Part shown: one piece after another, positions 24,990 to 42,395 of the stretch
Numbering within the stretch: position 1 is the first letter of the stretch
Layout: every line of letters starts with the position of its first letter
Source of the DNA: Skeletonema tropicum
Taxonomy: Eukaryota > Bacillariophyta > Thalassiosirophyceae > Thalassiosirales > Thalassiosiraceae
NCBI GenBank assembly: GCA_037178625.1
Contig: CM074130.1
Location: forward strand, 4,030,001 to 4,094,000
DNA length: 64,000 bases
Reading direction: 5' to 3'
Translations under genes and position numbers: made by a program
The notes under the pieces: generated by a model
Databases searched by the model: none
The model's input: the letters and a program-made list of their open reading frames with translations, nothing else
Told to the model about the DNA's origin: nothing

Positions 24990-27900
24990 CGATTTAGCCG
25001 CTTCTAGTGGCCCATTATACTTGCTGGAGATACTATACAAGCACATTAGCACTGCTCGACTGCTCCGACGGTCAGCTTCGGTAGAAGCGAAGCTACAGCC
25101 TCGTAGCTGATATATGAGAAGTCCAGAGCAGGCTAACCAACAGCACCACATCTATCCAACCAAATCGTATCTATCGTCATCAATTTGCGAATGAGCCGAT
25201 TCTAGTGGCCCATAATACTTGCTAGCGATACTAGACAAGCAGATTATATCTGCCTCAACGGTCAGCTTCCGCAGAAGCGATGCTACAGTCTCGTAGCTGA
25301 TCTCAAAGGTCCAGTGCGGGCTCACAGCCGGCAGCGGCCAATTATAGTCGGCGGTGATACTAGACAAGCCGATTTGTACTGCTCAGACGACTAGCGTCCG
25401 TAGAAGCGATGCTGCAACCTCGTTGCTGATGTGAGAGGTCCAGTATGTTGGCTGGCAAGCAGCAGCACATTTATCCAAATCGTATCTATTGCCGTCGGTA
25501 TGGGCATGAGCCGCTTCTAGAAACCCATTATAGTCGGCGATGATACTAGACAAGCTCATTTGTACTGCTCAGACGACTAGCGTCCGTAGAAGCGGTGCTA
25601 GAACATCGTAGCTGATGTGAGAGGACCAGAGTCTCAGGTGGTGAGGGCATGAGCCGCTTTTAGTGGCCCATTATAGTCGGCAATGATACTTGACCAGCTC
25701 ATTTGTACTGCTCAGACGACTAGCGTCCGAAGAAGCGATGCTACATCCTCGTAGCTGATGTGAGAGGTCCAGTATGTTGGCTGGCCAGCAGCAGCACAAT
25801 TAACCAAATCGTATCTATCGCCGTCGGTATGGGCATGAGCCGCTTCTAGTGGCCCATTAGAGTCGGCGGTGATACTAGGCAAGCTCATTTGTACTGCTCA
25901 GACGACTAGCGTCCGTAGAAGCGATGCTACAACCTCATAGCTGATGTGAGAGGACCAGAGTCTGAGGTGGTTAGCGGCAGCACATTCAATCAAATCGTAT
26001 CTATCGCCGTCGGTATGGGCATGAGCCGCTTTTAGTGGCCCATTATAGTCGGCGATGATACTTGACAAGCTCATTTGTACTGCTCAGACGACTAGCGATC
26101 CTAAAAGCGGTGCTAGAACATCGTAGCTGATGTCAGGGGACCAGAGTCTCAGGTGGTGAGGGCATGAGCCGCTTCTAGTGGCCCATTATAGTCGGCAATG
26201 ATACTAGACAAGCTCATTTGTACTGCTCAGACGACTAGCGTCCGTAGAAGCGATGCTACATCTTCGTAGCTGATGTGAGAGGTCCAGTATGTTGGCTTGC
26301 CAGCAGCAGCACATTCATCCAAATCGTATCCATCTCCGTCGGTATGGGCATGAACCGCTTCTAGTGGCCCATTATAGTCGGCGGTGATACTTGACAAGCT
26401 CATTTGTACTGCTCAGACGACTAGCGTCCGAAAAAGCGATGCTACATCTTCTTAGCCGATGTGAGAGGACCAGTATGTTGGCTGGCAAGCAGCAGCACAT
26501 TTATCCAAATCGTATCTATCGCCGTCGGTATGGGCATGAGCCGCTTCTAGTGGCCCATTATAGTCGGCGATAATACTTGACAAGCTCATTTGTACTGCTC
26601 AGACGACTAGCGTCCGTAGAAGCGATGCTACATCTTCTTAGCCGATGTGAGAGGACCAGTATGTTGGCTGGCCAGCAGCAGCACATTCATCCAAATCGTA
26701 TCTATCGCCGTCGGTATGGGCATGAGCCGCTTTTAGTGGCCCATTATAGTCGGCGGTGATACTAGAGAAGGTCATTTGTACTGCTCAGACGACTAGCGTC
26801 CGTAGAAGCGATGCTACATCTTCGTAGCTGATGTGAGAGGTCCAGTATGTTGGCTGGCCAGCATCAGCAACATTCATCCAAATCGATTTTATTGCCATCG
26901 GAATGGGCATGAGACGCTTCTAGTGGCCCATTATAGTCGTCGGTGATACTTGAAAAGCTCATTTGTACTGCTCAGACGACTAGCGTCCGTAGAAGCGATG
27001 CTACATCTTCTTAGCCGATGTGAGAGGACCAGTATGTTGGCTGGCCAGCAGCAGCACATTCATCCAAATCGTATCTATCGCCGTCGGTATGGGCATGAAC
27101 CGCTTCTAGTGGCCCATTATAGTCTTCTAGTGGCCCATTATAGTCGGCGGTGATACTAGACAAGCTCATTTGTACTGCTCAGACGACTAGCGTCCGTAGA
27201 AGCGATGCTACATCTTCGTAGCTGATGTGAGAGGTCCAGTATGTGGGCTGGCCAGCAGCGGCACATTCATCCAAATCGTATCTATCGCCGTCGGTATGGG
27301 CATGAGCCGCTTCTAGTGGCCCATTATAGTCGGCGATGATACTTGACAAGCTCATTTGTACTGCTCAGACGACTAGCGTCCGTAAAAGCGATGCTACATC
27401 CTCGTAGCTGATGTGAGATGATCACAGTCTGAGGTCGTGAGCGGCAGCACATTCATCCAAATCGTATCTATCGCCGTCGGTATGGGCATGAGCCGCTTTT
27501 AGTGGCCAATTATAGTCGGCGGTGATACTAGACAAGGTCATTTGTACTGCTCAGACGACTAGCGTCCGTAGAAGAGATGCTACATCTTCTTAGCTGATGT
27601 GACAGGACCAGGGTCTGAGGTCGTGAGCGGCAGCACATTCATCCAAATCGTATCTATCTCCGTCGGTATGGGCATGAACCGCTTCTAGTGGCCCATTATA
27701 GTCGGCGGTGATACTTGACAAGCTCATTTGTACTGCTCAGACGACTAGCGTCCGTAGAAGCGATGCTACATCTTCGTAGCTGATGTGAGAGGTCCAGTAT
27801 GTTGGCTTGCCAGCAGCAGCGCATTCATCCAAATCGTATCTATCGCCGACGGTATGGGCATGAGCCGCTTCTAGTGGCCCATTATAGTCTTCTAGTGGCC

Positions 27901-30900
27901 CATTATAGTCTACTTGACAAGCTCATTTGTACTGCTCAGACGACTAGCGTCCGTAGAAGCGATGCTACATCTTCGTAGCTGATGTGAGAGGTCCAGTATG
28001 TTGGCTTGCCAGCAGCAGCACATTCATCCAAATCGTATCCATCTCCGTCGGTATGGGCATGAGCCGCTTTTAGTGGCCAATTATAGTCGGCGGTGATACT
28101 AGACAAGGTCATTTGTACTGCTCAGACGACTAGCGATCCTAGAAGCGATCCTACAAATTCGTAGCTGATGTGAGAGGTTCAGTATGTTGGCTGGCCAACA
28201 GCAGCACATTTAGTCAAATCGTATTTATTGCCGTCGGTATGGGCATGAGACGCTTCTAGTGGCCCATTATAGTCGTCGGTGATACTTGACAAGCTCATTT
28301 GTACTGCTCAGACGACTAGCGTCCGTAGAAGCGATGCTACATCTTCGTAGCTGATGTGAGAGGTCCAGTGTGGGCTGGCCAGCAGCGGCACATTCATCCA
28401 AATCGTATCTATCGCCGTCGGTATGGGCATGAGCCGCGTCTAGTGGCCCATTATAGTCGGCGGTGATACTAGATAAGCTCATTTGTACTGCTCAGACGAC
28501 TAGCGTCCGTAGAAGCGATGCTACATCTTCGTAGCTGATGTGAGAGGACCAGAGTCTGAGCTGGTGAGCAGCAGGGCATCAATCCAAAACGTAAATATTG
28601 CCGTCGGTATGGGCATGAACCGCTTCTAGTGGCCCATTATAGTCGGCGGTGATAGTTGAGAAGCTCATTTGTACTGCTCAGACGACTAGCGTCCGTAGAA
28701 GCGGTGCTACATCTTCGTATCTAATGTGAGAGGTCCAGTATGTTGGCTGGCCAGCAGCAGCACATTCATCCAAATCGTATCTATCGCCGTCGGTTTTGGC
28801 ATGAGCCGCTTCTAGTGGCCCATTATAGTCGGCGGTGATACTAGACAAGCTCATTTGTACTGCTCAGACGACTAGCGTCCGTAGAAGCGATGCTACATCC
28901 TCGTAGCTGATGTGAGATGATCAGAGTCTGAGGTCGTGAGCGGCAGCACATTCATCCAAATCGTATCTATCGCCGTCGGTATGGGCATGAGCCGCTTTTA
29001 GTGGCCAATTATAGTCGGCGGTGATACTAGACAAGCTCATTTGTACTGCTCAGACGACTAGCGTCCTTAGAAGCGATGCTACATCTTCGTAGCTAATGTG
29101 AGAGGTCCAGTGTGGGCTGGCCAGCAGCGGCACATTCATCCAAATCGTATCTATCGCCGTCGGTATGGGCATGAGCCACTTCTAGTGGCCCATTAGAGTC
29201 GGCGATGATACTAGACAAGCTCATTTGTACTGCTCAGACGACTAGCGTCCGTAGAAGCGATGCTACATCTTCTTAGCCGATGTGAGAGGACCAGTATGTT
29301 GGCTGGCCAGCAGCAGCACATTCATCCAAATCGTATCTATCGCCGTCGATGTGGGCATGAGCCGCTTCTAGTGGCCCATTATAGTCTTCTAGTGGCCCAT
29401 TATAGTCGGCGGTGATACTAGACAAGCTCATTTGTACTGCTCAGACGACTAGCGTCCGTAGAAGCGATGCTACATCTTCGTTGCCGATGTGAGAGGTTCA
29501 TTATGTTGGCAGGCCAGCAGCAGCACATTCATCCAAATCGTATCTATCTCCGTCGGTATGGGCATGAGCCGCTTCTAGTGGCCCATTATAGTCGGCGGTG
29601 ATACTAGATAAGCTCATTTGTACTGCTCAGACGACTAGCGTCCGTAGAAGCGATGCTACATCTTCGTAGCTGATGTGAGAGGACCAGAGTCTGAGCTGGT
29701 GAGCAGCAGGGCATCAATCCAAATCGTAAATATTGCCGTCGGTATGGGCATGAACCGCTTCTAGTGGCCCATTATAGTCGGCGGTGATAGTTGAGAAGCT
29801 CATTTGTACTGCTCAGACGACTAGCGTCCGTAGAAGCGGTGCTACATCTTCGTATCTAATGTGAGAGGTCCAGTATGTTGGCTGGCCAGCAGCAGCACAT
29901 TCATCCAAATCGTATCTATCGCCGTCGGTTTTGGCATGAGCCGCTTCTAGTGGCCCATTATAGTCGGCGGTGATACTTGACAAGCTCATTTGTACTGCTC
30001 AGACGACTAGCGTCCGTAGAAGCGATGCTACATCCTCGTAGCTGATGTGAGATGATCAGAGTCTGAGGTCGTGAGCGGCAGCACATTCATCCAAATCGTA
30101 TCTATCGCCGTCGGTATGGGCATGAGCCGCTTCTAGTGGCCAATTATAGTCGGCGATGATACTAGACAAGCTCATTTGTACTGCTCAGACGACTAGCGTC
30201 CGTAGAAGCGATGCTACATCTTCGTAGCTAATGTGAGAGGTCCAGTGTGGGCTGGCCAGCAGCGGCACATTCATCCAAATCGTATCTATCGCCGTCGGTA
30301 TGGGCATGAGCCACTTCTAGTGGCCCATTAGAGTCGGCGATGATACTTGACAAGCTCATTTGTACTGCTCAGACGACTAGCGTCCGTAGAAGCGATGCTA
30401 CATCTTCTTAGCCGATGTGAGAGGACCAGTATGTTGGCTGGCCAGCAGCAGCACATTCATCCAAATCGTATCTATCGCCGTCGATGTGGGCATGAGCCGC
30501 TTCTAGTGGCCCATTATAGTCTTCTAGTGGCCCATTATAGTCGGCGGTGATACTAGACAAGCTCATTTGTACTGCTCAGACGACTAGCGTCCGTAGAAGC
30601 GATGCTACATCTTCGTTGCCGATGTGAGAGGTTCATTATGTTGGCTGGCCAGCAGCAGCACATTCATCCAAATCGTATCTATCTCCGTCGGTATGGGCAT
30701 GAGCCGCTTCTAGTGGCCCATTATAGTCGGCGGTGATACTAGATAAACTCATTTGTACTGCTCAGACGACTAGCGTCCGTAGAAGCGATGCTACATCTTC
30801 GTAGCTGATGTGAGAGGACCAGAGTCTGAGCTGGTGAGCAGCAGGGCATCAATCCAAATCGTAAATATTGCCGTCGGTATGGGCATGAACCGCTTCTAGT

Positions 30901-31393
30901 GGCCCATTATAGTCGGCGGTGATAGTTGAGAAGCTCATTTGTACTGCTCAGACGACTAGCGTCCGTAGAAGCGGTGCTACATCTTCGTATCTAATGTGAG
31001 AGGTCCAGTATGTTGGCTGGCCAGCAGCAGCACATTCATCCAAATCGTATCTATCGCCGTCGGTTTTGGCATGAGCCGCTTCTAGTGGCCCATTATAGTC
31101 GGCGGTGATACTTGACAAGCTCATTTGTACTGCTCAGACGACTAGCGTCCGTAGAAGCGATGCTACATCTTCGTAGCTAATGTGAGAGGTCCAGTGTGGG
31201 CTGGCCAGCAGCGGCACATTCATCCAAATCGTATCTATCGCCGTCGGTATGGGCATGAGCCACTTCTAGTGGCCCATTAGAGTCGTCGATGATACTTGAC
31301 AAGCTCATTTGTACTGCTCAGACGACTAGCGTCCGTAGAAGCGATGCTACATCTTCTTAGCCGATGTGAGAGGACCAGTATGTTGGCTGGCCA
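24990..31393. repeat. Satellite array, left part (about 35 monomers, mode 186 bp)
   Basis: Tandem repeat with the anchor TGTACTGCTCAGACGACTAG. I located 33 anchors from 25375 to 31310; spacings are mostly 186, with variants of 143, 184, 199 and 207. The 207-bp type carries a 21-bp duplication of TCTAGTGGCCCATTATAGTC. From 28484 a six-monomer higher-order unit (186,186,186,184,207,186 = 1135 bp) is repeated to 29619 and 30754, then a third partial copy runs to the retrotransposon. Units before 25560 are diverged, as expected at an array edge. Two alternative inner boxes occur, a CAGTATGTTGGCTGGCCAGC type and a CAGAGTCTGAG type. Each monomer has short dyads (GACG-ACTAG-CGTC; GCTAC...GTAGC). Not coding: stops recur in every monomer. 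Confidence 0.95.
31379..31393 (+). repeat. Left target-site duplication of the retrotransposon
   Basis: TATGTTGGCTGGCCA here and at 40462-40476 are identical (15 bp) and belong to the satellite monomer. Removing the insert plus one copy leaves an anchor spacing of exactly 207 bp (31310 to 40600), the length of the local monomer variant. Confidence 0.93.
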
Positions 31394-31487
31394 CAATCTC
31401 AAGCAGGTTGTCTGGAAAAGATATGAAAAAATGACATAAATACCTACGTAGGAATTAGTACATCGTCTACAGCGATCGACATGAACC

Positions 31488-32882
31488 ATGGCAGCCGACA
31501 CCGCTACCAACTGCACCCTGGGAACAGGGTACGACAACACTATAATGTATAATAACCATATGAATGGCTCCTTAAAAACGAGACTTACTACGGCAAAAAA
31601 GTACGCATCAATTGACACTACACTCACATTGTTTGGGAAGGGCGGCGGCAGGGCCATGTGGCCGGCCGGTTGCAACATCAAACAGGAATGGTGTTTTGGA
31701 GATATCGGAGGAATGAGGGACGGATTACGGGATGGAAGACTCTGCCGGTCAATGGACACAACGCAGGGATGGACGACTTTTAATCTTATAGATGGAGAGG
31801 AGGGAAACTGGAACAACAATTGGGTTGTGACACAATCTGTTGGGAAACAAGGCATGAAGATGAGGAGGGAGGAAGCAGTCCAACAACTTATTACTGCCAG
31901 CAATCTACTACATCAAACAGGTGCAATCCCAGCTCCCCCACCTAAACCACCTTGGCCCCCACCTTGGCATGATGAAGAACCTATATCGGAGCAAATTAGC
32001 ATGGAAGACGCGGCACTTGTACGCCACAAATATAATTGGAGATGTACACAACAAAGTAGACCCTTTGTCGCTCTTTCACATAACAACAACTCTTCTGGCG
32101 ATAGTCCTTTTAGCGTTGTGAATTGGATGACGTCTACAGTCGAAGTTGTGCTACAAAATCATAACAACAGTGACAATATTTTGGAAAATTGTTTTGGAGA
32201 TATCGGAGGAATGAGGGACGGATTACGGGATGGAAGACTCTGCCGGTCAATGGACACAACGCAGGGATGGACGACTTTTAATTTTATAGATGGAGAGGAG
32301 GGAAACTGGAACAACAATTGGGTTGTGACACAATCGGTTGGGAAACAAGGCATGAAGATGAGAAGTGAGGAAGCAGTCCAACAACTTATTACTGCCAACA
32401 TTCTACTACATCAAACAGGTGCAATCCCAGCTCCCCCACCTAAACCACCTTGGCCCCCACCTTGGCATGATGAAGAACCTATATCGGAGCAAATTAGCAT
32501 GGAAGACGCGGCACTTGTACGCCACAAATATAATTGGAGATGTACACAACAAAGTAGACCCTTTGTCGCTCTTTCACATAACAACAACACTTCTGGCTAT
32601 TGTCCTTTTAGCGTTGTGAATTGGATGACGTCTACAGTCGAAGTTGTGCTACAAAATCATAACAACAGTGACAATATTTTGGAAAATGGCAATACGTATT
32701 GCGGTGAGGATTCGGATGTGTGTAGCATCTACACCAAATTTATTCTACACAATCGCGGTAGTGAGTCATTCCTTGTTAGATTGGTATCTAATGACTGCGT
32801 CGACGTCTCGGTCTCACAAGCCGAGGCAGCTCTCTCCCAGGCCCCTCCATCTGATATAGGTGTTGTGGGGCCCATGGTGTAA
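31488..32882 (+). CDS. Retrotransposon ORF1 protein with an internal 166-aa duplication
   Basis: 464 aa from ATG in good context (ACCATGG). It has no RRM, CCHC knuckle or esterase motif that I can see. Residues 69-234 and 235-400 are two almost identical copies: the 498-bp units start at 31693 and 32191 and differ by about nine substitutions counted by eye. Each copy has a WTTFNLIDGEEGNWNNNW segment, a Pro-rich stretch (PAPPPKPPWPPPWHDEEP) and NWRCTQQSRPF. The TAA stop (32880-32882) shares its last A with the ATG of ORF2. By position it should be the RNA-binding/RNP protein, but no sequence motif proves this. Confidence 0.85.
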   Translation: MAADTATNCTLGTGYDNTIMYNNHMNGSLKTRLTTAKKYASIDTTLTLFGKGGGRAMWPAGCNIKQEWCFGDIGGMRDGLRDGRLCRSMDTTQGWTTFNLIDGEEGNWNNNWVVTQSVGKQGMKMRREEAVQQLITASNLLHQTGAIPAPPPKPPWPPPWHDEEPISEQISMEDAALVRHKYNWRCTQQSRPFVALSHNNNSSGDSPFSVVNWMTSTVEVVLQNHNNSDNILENCFGDIGGMRDGLRDGRLCRSMDTTQGWTTFNFIDGEEGNWNNNWVVTQSVGKQGMKMRSEEAVQQLITANILLHQTGAIPAPPPKPPWPPPWHDEEPISEQISMEDAALVRHKYNWRCTQQSRPFVALSHNNNTSGYCPFSVVNWMTSTVEVVLQNHNNSDNILENGNTYCGEDSDVCSIYTKFILHNRGSESFLVRLVSNDCVDVSVSQAEAALSQAPPSDIGVVGPMV

Positions 32883-35800
32883 TGGATAATGGGCAGCCTC
32901 TACGGTATTTTGCCCGATACCCCGAGGTGAGCCAATCCATTCAAGAGAGGCAACGTAAGCAACAACCTCGCCGCAGTACCTCCAATCAGAAGAAATCGGC
33001 CCGGCGTGCACAACAGTACCGACTCTCGAATACACGCAACCACGTCAAATTTAGAGGGAGGTACAGCAGCGAAAAGAATAATACAAGTGATAAGTTAGAT
33101 GCAGATACGATGAGGCAGCTCATAGCAAATAGGCAGCGTTGGTGCGATGATCCGTCAGCAAAGGACCTCAATGAACTGCTTGATGATTATAGGCACAAAG
33201 AGAGGGAGAAACAAGATAGAACCTCCTCGATGAAAGAACTCCGTCCACTTGGCCAGACAGTGGAGAATACGATTGTGCCTATTTACGGGAACTTGAGGGT
33301 GGAGGAGAAGGGCAGTGATGTAGTTCGAATAATGTCGTTGAATATCAACGGGCTCAGTCTGTGGAAGCACAACAACCACAAGGTAGATAGACTCAAGCAC
33401 GTCCTGCGGACGTATGGTGTGGATGTTCTGGGGCTCCAGGAGACCAACACCAACTTCCACCATCTAAAATCATCAGTGACGGTAGCCTCGATGCTAAGAC
33501 ATGGAGATGACAGAATCAAATCAGTACATTCTCAGAACACTCGGGAACTTCAGAACATTGGTAATGTTCAAGCGGGGGGGACAGCAGTTGTGATTAGAGA
33601 CGAGTTGTCGGGCTTACCCATGACCTGCGGCAAAGATTCCACTGAGCTGGGAATGTTCAGCTGGTATAGGACGGAGCCGGTCAATGGCGTGAGAACAGTC
33701 TTCTTAAGTGCCTACGCGCCCTGTAAATCAGAAGGGGTTGGTACATACTATCAACATATTGAGAGATACATCCAATCGCACCAGCTGAAGACCAACCCCA
33801 AGGATCTGTTCCGGAGACACATTGTCGATGCCATCAAACGGTGGCGCAGCAAAGGAGACAGGGTTGTTCTGATGATGGATGCTAATGAGAATGTGTTGGA
33901 CGGAGTCCTCAGTAAACGACTTGCAGAGGATGATATCCGCATGAGGGAAGCAGTGCACCGTATGGTCCCCGGCAGAAGAGGTCCTGCTACACATTTTCGA
34001 GGCAACAGCCAAAAGAATGGGGCCATAGACGGTATTTGGATCTCGGATGACGTTGAACTAACTGGAGCCAGCTACTTACCGTTCGACGGTGATTTGGGAG
34101 ATCACCGGCCAGTGGTTGTCGACCTACAGATGCGGTCGGTTATTGGCACTTCTATCTGTCGTATTGTGCCACCGAAGGCTAGAAAGCTTAACTCCAAGGT
34201 GCCGCGGATTAGAGTGAAGTACCTTGCACAATTAAAAAAAGGCTTCACAGATAGACGCATCCCCCAGAAGCTCAAAGAAGTAATTAGGATAGCCTCATTC
34301 CCGCCCTCGGCTGAAGTGGTGTCCAAGATGGAAATCCTGGACAACATGATTGAAGAGGAGATGCTACACGCAGAGGCGAAATGCAGAGTGATTTACCCGG
34401 CGCATTATGAGTTCTCTCCAGCAATACAATCGTGGATGGATAAATGCCACCTCCTGAAATGGATACTACGACATCACCAAGGAAAAAAGGTCAATTGGGG
34501 CAATTTGAGAAGATTCGCCAGGCGCAAAGGAATGGAGGACGTTCTTCGGTACCCTGTCGATGAAGTGGTTCAGCTGTACAAGGAGACCAAAAAACGCACA
34601 CGAGAACTCATGGCTGAATCACCTTACCTCAGAAAGCATTTTTTACACGAGAAGTTGACCGATGCTGTGATAAATGAACGGGTTGATGAAGCCAAGAGGG
34701 TGGAGCTGATCCTCAAAGGGGAGGCTCAGAGAAAACAGTGGCAGGGGATTAAACGAGCAACAAAGCAGCAAGGAGTGATGAATGTTACAAGAGTGGAAGT
34801 TACACAAGCAGACGGGAAAGTGGTCGAGCACGCAACAAAAGAATCGATTGAAGAGGCACTGAAGTCAGAACTCCGCACAAGGTTTGGAAGGGCTACTTCT
34901 GCCCCAGTTTGCCAAGGGGTACTATTCGACCTCCTGGGAGTCTACGCCGACACGAATGCAGCGGTAGAAATACTTGAAGGATCCTTCGCCCCTCCCCCAG
35001 ACACAGATCAACGCACAATACTGATACTGGACGAAATAGCAGCCATCTGGAAAAAGATTGGCGATGGTGAGATTTCCGTTGTCGTTTCACAGGAAGACTA
35101 CCAATATTACTGGAGGAAAGTGAAAGAAAGAACGTCATCCTCGATATCGGGACTGCATTTTGGTCACTATAAGTCGATAGCTTTCGATGACGACCTGTCC
35201 AGGCTGCTAGCAAAGAAGTTCTCTCTTATGATCCAAACAGGAACCGGCCCAGAACGTTGGGCTCGGGGTCTGTCGGTAATGCTCGAGAAGATTGCAGGTG
35301 TGGCGTTGGTGAATAAATTGAGAGCTATTCTCTTGCTTGAGGCTGACTTCAATTTCTGTAATAAGTTGATTTTTGGACATCGCATGCTGGACCTCGCCCG
35401 AGCAAAGGGGATGGTCCCGGAGGAGATCTACAGTGGGAAGGGACGCACGGCAGAGGATGCAATCCTGCAACAAGTATTGATGTACGACATTGCCCGAATC
35501 ACCAAAAGACCCCTCCTGGTGGCACAGGTTGATGCGGCCCAGTGCTACGACCGGGTTGCTCTTCCTATAGCCAGCCTCACTCTACAGGCGTTTAAAGTGC
35601 CCAAATGTGCGGCACTGTCGATGCTCCGCCCCTTGCATAATATGGAGTTTTTCCTAAGAACTGGTTTTGGCCAATCTTCTTCATATTTTGGTGGGAAAGA
35701 GGACGGGAAACACGGTCTCGCTCAAGGGAACGGTGCAGCTCCTCCGACATGGCAACAGATCAGCACGGTCATGATTAATACCCACAAAACTAATGGGCAT

Positions 35801-38800
35801 GGAGTGGAAGTGAAGTGTCCAATCTCACATAAAAAGATTAATCAGGTGGGAATTCTGTATGTGGATGATACCAATTTGTGGGAAGGTCTTAGAGCTGACG
35901 ATGACATTATCTCGACAAGTGCTAGAGGGCAAGAGTCAATCTCGGATTGGGCAGGTGCCTTGGGGGAAACGGGTGGCGCTTTGAAACCAGACAAATGTGG
36001 AGTTACAATACACGATCAAACACCCGATGGAAAGGGCGGCTGGTGTTACACGGATCAAAAAGCGATGCCCTCAGACGGCGAAGAGGTTGACATGAGTGAA
36101 CTGGATGACTTGATTTTCCACGTCCCCACTACTGACGGGGGTTCTGCGCAAATAGATAGGTTGCCATCGAATAAAGCTGACAACAACTTAGGTCTCTACG
36201 CTAGACCGGATGGGAAACCAGACCAACACTTCGAGCAGATGAGAGAAAAAATGACAACGTGGACGGCTCAGATTAAGAGCGGGCAAATACCAACTCGTTC
36301 GGTGTGGATGAGCTACACCAATCAGCTATGGTCTGGACTCAGGTACGGTCTGGGGGCCTGTTCGGCGTCAATCCCTGAGCTCAAAAAAGGATTGATGTCA
36401 GCAGATTTCTATATGTTAAGCAACCTAGGTGTCAACCGATCAATTACCAAGGAATGGAGATACCTGCCGGCCACGTTTGGTGGAATCGGTCTCTACGACT
36501 TGACGGTGGAAACTGCGGCTGCTACTTTATCTTCATTCTTGCAACACTATGGAACAACTTCAGCCCTAGGGATCACTTTAAGAGCAGCTATGGAACACCT
36601 TCAAGTGGAAATAGGGGTACCGGACTGTCCCTTCAACTATGACTTTGAAGTTTGGGGTCATTTATCAACCAACGCATGGGCGAAAGCCCTATGGGAGAAG
36701 ATAGACGAACTGGGAATCGTGCTGGATCTGCAATATGATGACATCCCCATCCCGAGGAGCAAGGATAGGGCTATTATGGACTGCATGGTTGAACTGGGTC
36801 TACGAGGGACGGAGCTACAGCGAGTCAATAGAGTGAGGAAAGCTCAGGAGGCAATGTTCCTCTCTGACGTGACTACGCCAAATGGACGATATCTAGAGCA
36901 ATATCTGCTTGACGGGCATTGGAAGGACTCACCTGAAGGGCGCCTTGGTAAACAGCGGTCAACTCTGGAATTTGGCACGGAATATCCGACGGAAGCAGAT
37001 TGGAAATTGTGGAAGAGATCCCTGCAACGTTTGACTGATAGCAAATCGTTGTTTCTTAAGGAGCCACTTGGAGATTGGATCAACCCATCTAAACGGATCT
37101 GGCGTCACTTCCTCAACACGGACACACGGACAGTGGAGATACATTCGGATGATACGATTTATGAATACGCTCACGACGTGGAATCGAATGACAGAGTGTC
37201 GATCATGCAGCCAGTCCGAGTGCTGGATGAGCCCGCTTCTTCAGTGGTACCAACGACGATTCTGGAATACGAAGATGGGTCCATCAAACTGCTAGCACAA
37301 GGACCGCCACTGGCCAGTCAGCCAGAAGTCGTCGCCCCTACTACATTTCTTGAGCGTCTCCGCAGTAAAGGGGGGGAATGGATGTGGGATAGTATCAGCT
37401 TCTCATCGGATCCCTCGTGGATTGTGGAAGCTATTCAACGAGGTTCATTGTTCTGTTGTACAGACGGGTCATACATGAAAAAGCTGGCGCCAGAGATCTG
37501 CGGTGCGGCTTGGGTTTTTTACTGCGCAGAGTCTCAACAGTGGCTTAAAGGAGAATTCACGGAGCACTCTAAATGGGCAAATAGCTATCGAGGAGAACAG
37601 CTAGGAATGTTGGCTATCCACCTTATCCTACTGACAATAGAGGAACACTATGGAGTGCCGTTGTCCAATGCAAACATCTTTTGTGACAACAAAGGAACTA
37701 TTCTCACGTTTTCCAGAAAATACGATCGTGTCCCAGGATCGGCGAAGAACAACGACATTCTCCGGGTCCTGCGGAAAATCCAAAGTGTCTCGGCTCTTGC
37801 GCACAAGCTGTCTCATGTGAAAGCACACCAGGACGACAGCTTGGGCTATGCTTGCCTGGCTCTGGAAGCTAGACTGAACGTAGACTGCGATTTCAGGGCA
37901 AAAGCAGCCATAAAGAGAGCAATTGAAAATTTCTCCTCTCTCCCGGTCACTCTGAGCTTACCGCTAGAAGCAGCGGTTGTTATCATCGATGGAATCAAAC
38001 AGACTGCAGACTTAGCAAAGGACCTACGGTATCACGTAGGGAAGGTGAAAGCACGACAGTTCTATGCCGATGAACAACTCCTACACCCTGATATATTCGA
38101 CTCTGTTGCTTGGGAACCATTGCGCCTGCTTCTCGACCGCAGGCCTAAGATGTTCAATCTGTGGTATGCGAAACAATGCTCCGGGTATTGTGGAACTGGT
38201 CAAATGATAACTAGATATGACAAAAATGCCTCCGATAAATGTCCGAACTGCGGTTGCTTTGAAACAGCGGATCACCTGAACCGCTGTAAGAGTAGAATTA
38301 GGAGGGGGCTATTGCTTGACAGTATAAACGATCTACAAGAGTGGATGGAGGGACATTGCACGCATACGTGCATACAGAAGTGGCTACCCCTTTTTATCTC
38401 TCTTCAGGGCAGCACTCTATTTGTGGACATGGTGCATAGTCAGGGATGGAGGATGTCTCAACAGATGCGTAGAGTGGGTAATAGCTTAGATAGGATTGGA
38501 TGGAGAAACGTGATGGAGGGGAAAGTATCCAAGGAGTTTCTCCAGATGCAGAAGGAGCATCTCCTAAAGAACCATTCGTTTCTGACCATCGACAGTTGGA
38601 CAAGCGGCTTCCTGGACAAGCTACTCTCGCTCACGCATACACAGTGGATCTGTAGGAATCTCACGAAACATCATCGAACGCAAGGAACCAAAGCACTTGC
38701 ATCAAGAGAAGAGATTTTGAAAGAGATCGAACATCAGCTTAATCTTGGATCCGATGGGCTCTCAGCTGAAGCACGATGTCTCCTTGAAATTCCGACGGAC

Positions 38801-40249
38801 GAGCTCTATGGGAAACCGACCTCTGAACTACAATACTGGTTGAACGCAGCGGTAGCAAGCAGGCAAGCTGCGGGGGATGAATCAGGCGGGCTTTTAGAGC
38901 CTCCTTCTGGGCAAGTCACGACTGGTGCCAAGCAACGAGAAGATCGCAAATCAAAGCCACAGGGTACTTCAAAGACTGCCGCACCTGCGCGCAACCCAAA
39001 AGCACTCGCTCCCATCTTTCTCCCGAAAAAAGCAAGGCGTCCAGCCCAGCCGAGCGCCCTACCTACCCAGCCTCCTACAACTCTACCACCGGCTGTGAGT
39101 CCACAACAACAGGACCGCATTGGGCTTCTGCAAAGGAACTCGGATGAAGACTTACACCGCTGTCAAGTTGGAGCCCTTTTGCGGGACGTGCCAGCTAATT
39201 TTCAGTTATGCCTCCAAGGAGGGGACAAGGTTCGGCGTGATGCAATGCGGTCTTTGCGACCCCCTCAGTGGCTCAATGATGAAGTTATCAATGGCTATCT
39301 CCTAAGAGTCCTCCTCCCAAAGGTGAATCGGCAATATGTCTACATCTTCAACTCATTCTTCATGTCAACCCTCCTACGTACGGGGGCTGACGGCAGGTCT
39401 GCTCCGTCCTACAACTTTGACGGCGTTAAACGCTGGGGAAATCGTTTAAGGAGGAAGAATAAGATTTTGGGAGTGAAAGAGATCTTCGTGCCGATCAACC
39501 ACTCTAGAACTCACTGGCTATTACTCAGGGCGAATACAGAAACAAAGGTTATTACCCTGTGGGATTCCCAAGGTAGGAAGCCGGGCAATCAATTGTATCT
39601 GACTACAATGTTAAGGTATTTGGGGGACAAATACAGTGAACTTCACGGTGTACCGAGTGACGATTGGAAAGCAGAGTGGTCACTAGTAGATGCCTCCAAC
39701 AATTCTCCGAAACAAACCAATGGACACGACTGTGGATTGTTTGTCCTCGCTAATGCGACTATGCTGGCTCAGCAGATCCCTCTGTCCCCTTCCTCGTACA
39801 ATGAGGGAGATTTCCAGCTGTTAGACACCCGAAGTAGGGTGGCGATGCTGTTGTGGCTAGCGAGTACCAACAGGCCTGTACCACCTGCAGTACGGGCAGT
39901 CCAATCGAGGCGGCGTCAACGCCAAACACAGAGCAATGAGAGGAGCCGAAATGGCCAATCTAAGATCAAACCTCTTCCAGCAAAGAAAGCTTCTGCCGCA
40001 GTCAAGCACTCCAAAGGCAAGGAGCGCGCAAAGCGACGTCGCAACAACAAGCCAATTATCCCGGGAGGTCCCAAAACTCGGGGGAAAATCTTGGTCACAG
40101 ACCCCACGCCATTGCAACAGACACATTCACTATTGAACAAGAAACGCAAAGCAGAGTCCGTAGTTTTTGGGGAGGCCACATTGTTAGCTACCACTCAACG
40201 CCATGCTCCGCCGAAGAGGAAGAAACGGAAACAGCACCACCCTGACTGA
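32882..40249 (+). CDS. Retrotransposon ORF2: APE endonuclease, reverse transcriptase, RNase H, Ulp1-like protease
   Basis: 2455 aa. A basic N-terminus is followed by an exonuclease-endonuclease-phosphatase domain (about 148-415: SLNINGL, LGLQET, YAP, MDANE, DGIWIS, DHRPV). The reverse transcriptase (about 780-1100) has motif A VAQVDAAQCYDR (Asp884), motif B GLAQGNGAAPPTW, motif C YVDD (993-996) and GGALKPDKCG. RNase H (about 1522-1690) has TDGSYM (Asp1528), RGEQLGML, FCDNKGT and HVKAHQDD. A knuckle CPNCGCFETADHLNRC lies at 1787-1802. After a Pro/Lys linker (about 1985-2090) comes a C48 Ulp1/SENP-type domain (about 2125-2310): WLNDEVINGYLL, THWLL (His2211), WDSQG (Asp2228), KQTNGHDCG (Gln2278, Cys2284), the full catalytic set. 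The C-terminus is a basic, NLS-like tail. APE nicks the target, RT copies the RNA by target-primed synthesis; the protease may cleave the polyprotein or remove SUMO/ubiquitin-like proteins (inference). Confidence 0.95.
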   Translation: MDNGQPLRYFARYPEVSQSIQERQRKQQPRRSTSNQKKSARRAQQYRLSNTRNHVKFRGRYSSEKNNTSDKLDADTMRQLIANRQRWCDDPSAKDLNELLDDYRHKEREKQDRTSSMKELRPLGQTVENTIVPIYGNLRVEEKGSDVVRIMSLNINGLSLWKHNNHKVDRLKHVLRTYGVDVLGLQETNTNFHHLKSSVTVASMLRHGDDRIKSVHSQNTRELQNIGNVQAGGTAVVIRDELSGLPMTCGKDSTELGMFSWYRTEPVNGVRTVFLSAYAPCKSEGVGTYYQHIERYIQSHQLKTNPKDLFRRHIVDAIKRWRSKGDRVVLMMDANENVLDGVLSKRLAEDDIRMREAVHRMVPGRRGPATHFRGNSQKNGAIDGIWISDDVELTGASYLPFDGDLGDHRPVVVDLQMRSVIGTSICRIVPPKARKLNSKVPRIRVKYLAQLKKGFTDRRIPQKLKEVIRIASFPPSAEVVSKMEILDNMIEEEMLHAEAKCRVIYPAHYEFSPAIQSWMDKCHLLKWILRHHQGKKVNWGNLRRFARRKGMEDVLRYPVDEVVQLYKETKKRTRELMAESPYLRKHFLHEKLTDAVINERVDEAKRVELILKGEAQRKQWQGIKRATKQQGVMNVTRVEVTQADGKVVEHATKESIEEALKSELRTRFGRATSAPVCQGVLFDLLGVYADTNAAVEILEGSFAPPPDTDQRTILILDEIAAIWKKIGDGEISVVVSQEDYQYYWRKVKERTSSSISGLHFGHYKSIAFDDDLSRLLAKKFSLMIQTGTGPERWARGLSVMLEKIAGVALVNKLRAILLLEADFNFCNKLIFGHRMLDLARAKGMVPEEIYSGKGRTAEDAILQQVLMYDIARITKRPLLVAQVDAAQCYDRVALPIASLTLQAFKVPKCAALSMLRPLHNMEFFLRTGFGQSSSYFGGKEDGKHGLAQGNGAAPPTWQQISTVMINTHKTNGHGVEVKCPISHKKINQVGILYVDDTNLWEGLRADDDIISTSARGQESISDWAGALGETGGALKPDKCGVTIHDQTPDGKGGWCYTDQKAMPSDGEEVDMSELDDLIFHVPTTDGGSAQIDRLPSNKADNNLGLYARPDGKPDQHFEQMREKMTTWTAQIKSGQIPTRSVWMSYTNQLWSGLRYGLGACSASIPELKKGLMSADFYMLSNLGVNRSITKEWRYLPATFGGIGLYDLTVETAAATLSSFLQHYGTTSALGITLRAAMEHLQVEIGVPDCPFNYDFEVWGHLSTNAWAKALWEKIDELGIVLDLQYDDIPIPRSKDRAIMDCMVELGLRGTELQRVNRVRKAQEAMFLSDVTTPNGRYLEQYLLDGHWKDSPEGRLGKQRSTLEFGTEYPTEADWKLWKRSLQRLTDSKSLFLKEPLGDWINPSKRIWRHFLNTDTRTVEIHSDDTIYEYAHDVESNDRVSIMQPVRVLDEPASSVVPTTILEYEDGSIKLLAQGPPLASQPEVVAPTTFLERLRSKGGEWMWDSISFSSDPSWIVEAIQRGSLFCCTDGSYMKKLAPEICGAAWVFYCAESQQWLKGEFTEHSKWANSYRGEQLGMLAIHLILLTIEEHYGVPLSNANIFCDNKGTILTFSRKYDRVPGSAKNNDILRVLRKIQSVSALAHKLSHVKAHQDDSLGYACLALEARLNVDCDFRAKAAIKRAIENFSSLPVTLSLPLEAAVVIIDGIKQTADLAKDLRYHVGKVKARQFYADEQLLHPDIFDSVAWEPLRLLLDRRPKMFNLWYAKQCSGYCGTGQMITRYDKNASDKCPNCGCFETADHLNRCKSRIRRGLLLDSINDLQEWMEGHCTHTCIQKWLPLFISLQGSTLFVDMVHSQGWRMSQQMRRVGNSLDRIGWRNVMEGKVSKEFLQMQKEHLLKNHSFLTIDSWTSGFLDKLLSLTHTQWICRNLTKHHRTQGTKALASREEILKEIEHQLNLGSDGLSAEARCLLEIPTDELYGKPTSELQYWLNAAVASRQAAGDESGGLLEPPSGQVTTGAKQREDRKSKPQGTSKTAAPARNPKALAPIFLPKKARRPAQPSALPTQPPTTLPPAVSPQQQDRIGLLQRNSDEDLHRCQVGALLRDVPANFQLCLQGGDKVRRDAMRSLRPPQWLNDEVINGYLLRVLLPKVNRQYVYIFNSFFMSTLLRTGADGRSAPSYNFDGVKRWGNRLRRKNKILGVKEIFVPINHSRTHWLLLRANTETKVITLWDSQGRKPGNQLYLTTMLRYLGDKYSELHGVPSDDWKAEWSLVDASNNSPKQTNGHDCGLFVLANATMLAQQIPLSPSSYNEGDFQLLDTRSRVAMLLWLASTNRPVPPAVRAVQSRRRQRQTQSNERSRNGQSKIKPLPAKKASAAVKHSKGKERAKRRRNNKPIIPGGPKTRGKILVTDPTPLQQTHSLLNKKRKAESVVFGEATLLATTQRHAPPKRKKRKQHHPD

Positions 40250-40461
40250 AAGAATTGAGTCCCAACTATGTGTCGCAGGAGCACTCTCACCTGGTTACAG
40301 ACGCTTCGGCGTTTAAGAGGAGTCCTTGACTCCTACGGGAAGTTTCCCGTCTTGCTGTCTGGAAAGCCATTCGGCAATAGAAAAGACCGTACAGTTGTAC
40401 CGAAGCAGGTCCCTTTTAGTATCATAGATATCTAATCTGATTAACTTTGTATTTATTTATT
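40250..40461 (+). other. Retrotransposon 3' UTR with hairpins and ATTT tail
   Basis: Contains a run of short perfect hairpins: ACGCTTCGGCGT, GAGTCCTTGACTC and ACGGGAAGTTTCCCGT (about 40301-40360). The element ends in (ATTT)n abutting the target duplication. Structured 3' UTRs and simple-repeat tails are typical for RNA recognition by LINE reverse transcriptases. Confidence 0.7.
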
Positions 40462-42395
40462 TATGTTGGCTGGCCAGCAGCAGCACATTCATCCAAATCG
40501 TATCTATCGCCGTCGATATGGGCATGAGCCGCTTCTAGTGGCCCATTATAGTCTTCTAGTGGCCCATTATAGTCGGCGGTGATACTTGACAAGCTCATTT
40601 GTACTGCTCAGACGACTAGCGTCCGTAGAAGCGATGCTACATCTTCGTAGCTAATGTGAGAGGTCCAGTGTGGGCTGGCCAGCAGCGGCACATTCATCCA
40701 AATCGTATCTATCGCCGTCGCTATGGGCATGAGCCGCTTCTAGTGGCCCATTATAGTCGTCGGTGATACTTGACAAGCTCATTTGTACTGCTCAGACGAC
40801 TAGCGTCCGTAGAAGCGATGCTACATCTTCGTAGCCGATGTGAGAGGTCCAGTATGTTGGCTGGCCAGCAGCAGCACATTTAATCAAATCGTATTTATTG
40901 CCGTCGGTATGGGCATGAGACGCTTCTAGTGGCCCATTATAGTCGGCGGTGATACTGGACAAGCTCATTTGTACTGCTCAGACGACTAGCGTCCGTAGAA
41001 GCGATGCTACATCTTCGTAGCTGATGTGAGAGGTCCAGTATGTTGGCTTGCCAGCAGCAGCACATTCATCCAAATCGTATCTATCTCCGTCGGTATGGGC
41101 ATGAACCGCTTCTAGTGGCCCATTATAGTCGGCGGTGATACTTGACAAGCTCATTCTTACTGCTCAGACGACTAGCGTCCGTAGAAGCGATGCTACATCT
41201 TCTTAGCCGATGTAAGAGGACCAGTATGTTGGCATGGCCAGCATCAGCACATTCATCCAAATCGTATCTATCGCCGTCGGTATGGGCATGAGCCGCTTCG
41301 AGTGGCCCATTATAGTCGGCGATGATACTTGACAAGCTCATTTGTACTGCTCAGACGACTAGCGTCCGTAAAAGCGATGCTACATCTTCTTAGCTGATGT
41401 GAGATGATCAGTATGTCTGAGGTCGTGCAGCAGCAGCACATTCATCCAAATCGTATCTATCGCCGGTCGGTATGGGCATGAAGCCGCTTCTAGTGGCCAA
41501 TTATAGTCGTCGGTGATACTAGACAAGCTCATTCTGTACTGCTCAGACGACTAGCGTCCGTAGAAGCGATGCTACATCTTCGTAGCCTGATGTGAGAGGT
41601 CCAGTATGTTGGCTGGCCAGCATCAGCACATTCATCCAAATCGTATTTATTGCCGTCGGTATGGGCATGAGACGCTTCTAGTGGCCCATTATAGTCGGCG
41701 GTGATACTAGACAAGCTCATTTGTACTGCTCAGACGACTAGCGTCCGAAAAAGCGATGCTACATCTTCGTAGCTGATGTGAGAGGTCCAGTGTGGGCTGG
41801 CCAGCAGCAGCACATTCATCCAAATCGTATCTATTGCTGTCGGTATGGGCATGAGCCGCTTCTAGTGGCCCATTATAGTCGGCGATGATTCTAGACAAGC
41901 TCATTTGTACTGCTCAGACGACTAGCGTCCGTAGAAGCGATGCTACATCTTCGTAGCTGATGTGAGAGGACCAGAGTCTCAGGTGGTGAGCGTCAGCACA
42001 TTCATCCAAATCGTATCTATCTCTGTCGGTATTGGCATGAGCCGCTTCTAGTGGCCCATTATAGTCGGCTATGATACTTAGACAAGCTCATTTGTACTGC
42101 TCAGACGACTAGCGTCCGTAGAAGCGATGCTACATCTTCGTAGCTGATGTGAGAGGTCCAGTATGTTGACTGGCCAGCAGCAGCACATTCATCCAAATCG
42201 TATCTATCTCCGTCGGTATGGACATGAACCGCTTCTAGTGGCCCATTATAGTCGGCGGTGATAGTTGAGAAGCTCATTTGTACTGCTCAGACGACTAGCG
42301 TCCGTAGAAGCGATGCTACATCTTCGTAATTCATGTGAGAGGTCCAGTGTGGGCTGGCCAGCAGCAGCACACCCAACCAAATCGTATCTTTCGTC
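40462..42395. repeat. Satellite array, right part (about 10 monomers)
   Basis: Begins with the right target-site duplication (40462-40476) and continues the interrupted 207-bp monomer. Anchors lie at 40600, 40784, 40970, 41156, 41343, 41535, 41722, 41906, 42093 and 42279. Spacing is 184-187 with one 192. Monomers from about 41150 onward carry small insertions (for example at 41531 and 42070), so homogeneity falls towards the edge. The last monomer breaks off near 42395. Confidence 0.95.

Follow-up and report, generated by a model that had tools for sequence, protein, structure and literature searches.

A C-terminal protease domain of the Ulp1/SENP type on an APE-type LINE of the diatom Skeletonema tropicum

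Why should a retrotransposon carry, on the same protein as its endonuclease and reverse transcriptase, a domain that resembles the proteases acting on SUMO (small ubiquitin-like modifier)? The question is raised by a long interspersed nuclear element (LINE) in a window of 64,000 nucleotides from Skeletonema tropicum (GenBank assembly GCA_037178625.1, contig CM074130.1, positions 4,030,001 to 4,094,000; contig C4 in our numbering), which we compared with the assembly as a whole (78.4 Mb, 125 contigs). The element is a recently active retrotransposon of the kind that lacks long terminal repeats (LTRs) and has an apurinic/apyrimidinic endonuclease (APE). The second of its two open reading frames, ORF2, ends in an arm of about 455 residues, made up of a fast-changing linker, a Peptidase_C48 (Ulp1/SENP) protease and a basic tail. 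Coordinates are collected in Table 1.

An earlier note, made from the sequence alone, had described an APE-type LINE ending in what looked like a complete Ulp1/SENP-type domain, and this description holds in many copies. The profile search that it proposed gave a Peptidase_C48 score of 79.3 bits against a cut-off of 20.7. The His, Asp, Gln and Cys of the putative catalytic set follow one another in the order and with the spacing of the C48 family, and all four are kept in 42 of the 42 copies read. Trp2130 aligns with a Trp of Ulp1/SENP enzymes that we take to sit at the Gly-Gly tunnel. The structural comparison likewise agreed with the note: the fold predicted for the domain is the papain-like Ulp1 fold of C48 proteases, with 22-29% identity in structural alignments to the cellular enzymes SENP1, SENP2, SENP5 and yeast Ulp1 (PDB), and it is closer to the SENPs than to viral polyprotein proteases. 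The predicted fold and the aligned residues are those of enzymes that cut after the Gly-Gly of SUMO-like proteins.

The genome holds three related LINE families. Families A, which includes the copy in the window, and B share 66% identity in ORF2 and diverge by about 35% in the C48 domain, whereas family E is only 33% identical to A. The E frame (2030 aa, represented by locus L032) follows the A and B frames collinearly as far as A residue ~1996 and stops there, short of the linker and without a C48 domain; A and B extend some 455 residues further. Searched as DNA, the 735-bp protease part gave at least 40 matches at 96-100% identity, 40 of 80 candidates having been scored, and 17 of 32 full-length family-A reverse transcriptase matches lie in open ORF2 frames of 2462-2466 aa. 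Among the matches listed, the reverse transcriptase is followed by a C48 match on the same strand, no more than 9 kb downstream, in 31 of 32 A copies, 18 of 20 B copies and 0 of 26 E copies. This count used full or nearly full reverse transcriptase rows, leaving weak or partial matches uncounted, and a C48 search that scored 150 of 176 candidates, the weak end being left out. A single E copy was read, and its 9-kb stretch contains no match to C48 at E 1. One of the B copies without a nearby C48 (C5:167836) is separated by an A copy from a B-type C48 match at C5:181410. By its coordinates this family-A copy is nested in the family-B copy (C5:167836-182120), and A therefore moved after that B insertion. 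The reverse transcriptase of family E matches its Pfam profile below the cut-off, as in the other families; its endonuclease region has no Pfam match and is named solely by its alignment with that of A. The related family E lacks C48, so some LINEs of this type can do without it. If other LINEs are without the domain, gain of the arm by A and B would be more economical than its loss by E.

A comparison of A and B over 2434 aligned codons indicates that the protease arm is under purifying selection. In the C48 domain the proportion of nonsynonymous differences (pN) is 0.236 and that of synonymous differences (pS) 0.839, which is saturated, giving a pN/pS of 0.281 (bootstrap 0.210-0.345); because pS is saturated throughout (0.70-0.87), this ratio overstates dN/dS. 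The pN values of the reverse transcriptase (0.167), APE (0.167), RNase H-like region (0.226) and thumb (0.240) may be set beside it, as may those of the linker (0.470; 37% identical between A and B), tail (0.307) and N-terminus (0.406). Within family A, counts were made on distinct loci, L050 and L051 being dropped for differing length. Among 21 close loci, the ratio of nonsynonymous to synonymous variants in the C48 domain is 3:3 where a variant occurs in a single copy and 0:5 where it is shared, numbers too small for much of a conclusion. On 27 loci, after the addition of six that are more diverged, the corresponding counts are 10:28 and 7:15, the per-site ratios are 0.11 and 0.14, and two stops are seen. 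The earlier note had argued for selection from the intact residues of one recent copy; that argument does not carry, but the selection itself is borne out by the A/B comparison and the within-family counts. The note had also held that absence of the domain from other copies would mark a one-off fusion. Families A and B retain the domain and the related family E does not, and a one-off fusion is excluded by the two families together with the 42 of 42 intact catalytic sets.

What, then, might the protease do? The earlier note had suggested polyprotein processing or the stripping of SUMO-like modifiers, and both are taken up here as possibilities. The reading that we favor, at about even confidence, is that it is an accessory isopeptidase for SUMO or a related Gly-Gly modifier, delivered by the ORF2 protein. 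ORF2 protein would carry the protease into the nucleus and to the target site, where it would free proteins of the host or the element from the modifier; removal of SUMO would ease integration or blunt SUMO-dependent silencing. Since family E multiplied without it, the protease would be accessory and lie outside the core copying reaction.

A second possibility, which we consider unlikely though it comes next in rank, is that the protease cuts its own polyprotein, releasing itself at AAGDx[ST]GG, possibly also freeing the basic tail, perhaps at IIPGG, and leaving an E-like core. The motif AAGDx[ST]GG is a candidate self-cleavage site, for it persists in A, B, B2 and B4, four lineages in all, amid fast-changing sequence and at the point at which the E protein stops; in the tail, which is otherwise variable, A and B have the same IIPGGPKTRGK. 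Viral proteases of the Ulp1 fold cleave polyproteins at Gly-Gly sites, which favors the idea. However, the predicted fold is closer to the SENPs than to those viral enzymes, and Ulp1/SENP enzymes require a folded ubiquitin-like partner, of which a Pfam search found none in ORF2. Moreover, AAGDx[ST]GG may merely mark the end of the conserved core, and because A and B have nine GG pairs in common along ORF2, most of them within that core, GG conservation alone is weak evidence. A comparison with the tail of host SUMO was uninformative, since the four ubiquitin-like loci considered resemble ubiquitin or NEDD8.

Somewhat less probable still is that the domain was captured as a passenger from some other mobile element and serves to bind ubiquitin-like proteins as a reader, or to lend stability, instead of acting as a protease. 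The C48 domains most closely related to it in the genome do lie in other apparent repeats (L030, 36% identical; L033, 37%; L037, a fragment, 43%). However, a pure binding module has no need of the Cys, and the four catalytic positions persist in all copies read, in two families whose domains differ by about 35%. The capture itself may be considered apart from the function. In a 12-row tree, the LINE domains and those of L030 and L033 are separated from the host-like gene L036 (Pfam E 1.5e-24) and the Ginger-like L031 with support of 100/99, and the LINE domains group together with 90/98, although the tree has few rows and long branches, of which the program itself warns. Plain identity to the LINE domain separates the two sides poorly (L036, cut off before the Cys, 35%; L031, 31%). 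Trading of C48 between mobile elements, in one direction or the other, is plausible.

Less likely again, taken as a whole, is a composite proposal: an undescribed group of APE-type diatom LINEs with its own deSUMOylase, borrowed from another mobile element and used both for self-release at the SUMO-tail-like [ST]GG site and for stripping SUMO at the integration site, the protease-free family being a natural control. Finally, that a fragment of a host SENP gene was trapped once beside a LINE, by chance or as a relic, is very improbable: its sole support is the presence of an enzyme of this kind among the host's own genes (L036), and it is already contradicted by the same arm, in the same frame, in two diverged multicopy families under purifying selection.

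Several other C48 carriers were seen in the genome. L030, L033 and L034 have Pfam matches to C48 alone, apart from one weak match below the cut-off in L033. L031 (1122-4717) is a Ginger-like element with an rve integrase core, below the Pfam cut-off, and C48 in neighboring frames; a 1044-aa frame of this kind occurs in at least seven rows among the C48 matches listed. L034 (1-1632) and L035 encode C48 proteins with a long upstream region in common, in which L034 has no Pfam match, and may possibly represent an undescribed DNA transposon. Outside this genome, scans of viral_contigs with ORF2, the reverse transcriptase alignment and the C48 alignment found no relatives, and a scan of genome_contigs gave a single weak match over 53 query residues, from a bacterium (L064), which was not used.

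The earlier note had stated that well-known LINE clades lack this domain. This is too broad: according to PMC4640811, NeSL of nematodes and Utopia-1_TSP combine a reverse transcriptase with an N-terminal Ulp1-like cysteine protease. These elements, as described there, have a restriction-like endonuclease (RLE) and are mostly site-specific, whereas the diatom LINE is APE-type, with varied flanks and a C-terminal protease (aa 2129-2317 of 2455). Its endonuclease and the position of its protease speak against membership of NeSL/Utopia; Pfam found no nuclease in ORF2 besides APE, no search having been aimed at an RLE profile. Ginger1 DNA transposons, as described in PMC2836005, also have a C-terminal Ulp1 domain, which the authors link tentatively to SUMO- and ubiquitin-regulated DNA repair, but on a DDE integrase rather than a reverse transcriptase, and the C48 of the Ginger-like L031 lies elsewhere in our tree. 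CryptonF and CryptonS of oomycetes (PMC3212892) and Mutator elements (PMC2836005) carry a C48/Ulp1 peptidase as well but are DNA transposons. No APE-type LINE with a C48 domain was found described in the open-access literature searched, Repbase and subscription papers lying outside its scope. Within the searches made, the new finding is an APE-type LINE whose C48 arm is C-terminal and whose relative, family E, lacks C48.

Table 1. Features of the LINE, in positions of the window.
Feature	Position	Strand	Basis or remark
Whole LINE, ~9.07 kb	31392..40464	+	ends common to other copies; satellite both sides
Candidate target-site duplication, 5' copy, at most 15 bp	31379..31393	.	overlaps element start
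ORF1, 464 aa	31488..32882	+	two 498-bp in-frame tandem units
TAATG, ORF1 stop overlapping ORF2 start by one base	32880..32884	+	same in family B
ORF2, 2455 aa	32882..40249	+	
APE-type endonuclease (Exo_endo_phos), aa 151-408	33332..34105	+	Pfam E 2.1e-8, above cut-off
Reverse transcriptase, aa 841-1042	35402..36007	+	Pfam RVT_1 E 5.2e-5, below cut-off
RNase H-like region	37424..37921	+	motif only: D1528, E1572, D1602, H1649, D1670
CCHC-type cysteine/histidine motif, C1787-C1802	38240..38287	+	C1787, C1790, H1798, C1802 invariant in A, B, E
Gly2002-Gly2003 of AAGDx[ST]GG, junction of LINE core and protease arm	38885..38890	+	conserved in A, B, B2, B4
Peptidase_C48 domain, aa 2129-2317	39266..39832	+	profile, alignment, predicted fold
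Trp2130 (WLND)	39269..39271	+	aligned with Ulp1/SENP Trp
His2211, catalytic	39512..39514	+	alignment
Asp2228, catalytic	39563..39565	+	alignment
Gln2278, oxyanion hole	39713..39715	+	alignment
Cys2284, nucleophile	39731..39733	+	alignment
Gly2395-Gly2396 of IIPGGPKTRGK, basic tail	40064..40069	+	conserved A vs B
ATTQRHAPPKRKKRK, basic C-terminal motif like a nuclear localization signal	40187..40231	+	identical in family B
3' untranslated region	about 40250..40464	+	predicted hairpins kept in family B
Candidate target-site duplication, 3' copy	40462..40476	.	same motif as 5' copy

LINEs make up 5.18% of the S. tropicum genome, according to PMC11032307. The copy in the window is inserted in an array of a ~186-bp satellite, which flanks it on both sides (25336-31393 and 40553-42393); the boundary of its candidate duplication is ambiguous, the motif being also part of the satellite unit. 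Copy L028 adjoins a similar satellite, the only such match among the 20 loci of 10 kb that were fetched. Short duplications amid unrelated flanks occur in all seven fetched loci with both ends visible (L010, L014, L016, L017, L018, L020 and L022). The first and last 1 kb of the LINE do not match each other, and it is therefore without LTRs; its 3' end is a ATTTATTTAT tail. With target-site duplications, a defined 3' end, many copies and no LTRs, the element has the hallmarks of a LINE. Its 3' untranslated region is strongly conserved between A and B; in a comparison of two sequences, both partners differ in 2 of the 48 predicted pairs, and the hairpins are possibly a recognition structure for the reverse transcriptase. 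The match of the family-A copy L021 (C7:3838368) to the element stops at the equivalent of window position 40042, and this copy lies in an open frame of 3474 aa, about 1000 aa above the usual length.

ORF1 has no Pfam match above the cut-off. Its tandem unit (31692-32687 in the window) varies in number among fetched family-A copies, with one in L016-L018 and L020-L022, two in L010, L014 and L023, and at least three in L025 and L027. In ORF2 an APE-type endonuclease and a reverse transcriptase share one frame, as in LINEs; the latter has YVDD at aa 993-996, is conserved in families B and E, and recurs with Y/FVDD in three families. The RNase H-like residues are invariant in A, B and E. A Pfam scan found no profile match in that region, PDB sequence searches for RNase H and reverse transcriptase returned nothing usable, and AlphaFold2 on the joint region from three sequences gave no usable structural support, so that this assignment is kept at the level of a motif. 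The basic ATTQRHAPPKRKKRK motif may direct the protein to the nucleus.

To our knowledge, the role of Ulp1-type domains, which recur in unrelated mobile elements, is unsettled. Here one small genome contains two C48-bearing families and one that lacks the domain, all three multicopy and with near-identical members, and the role of the protease in the element is therefore testable. It is open to comparison of integration sites, of transcripts and of protease-dead copies.
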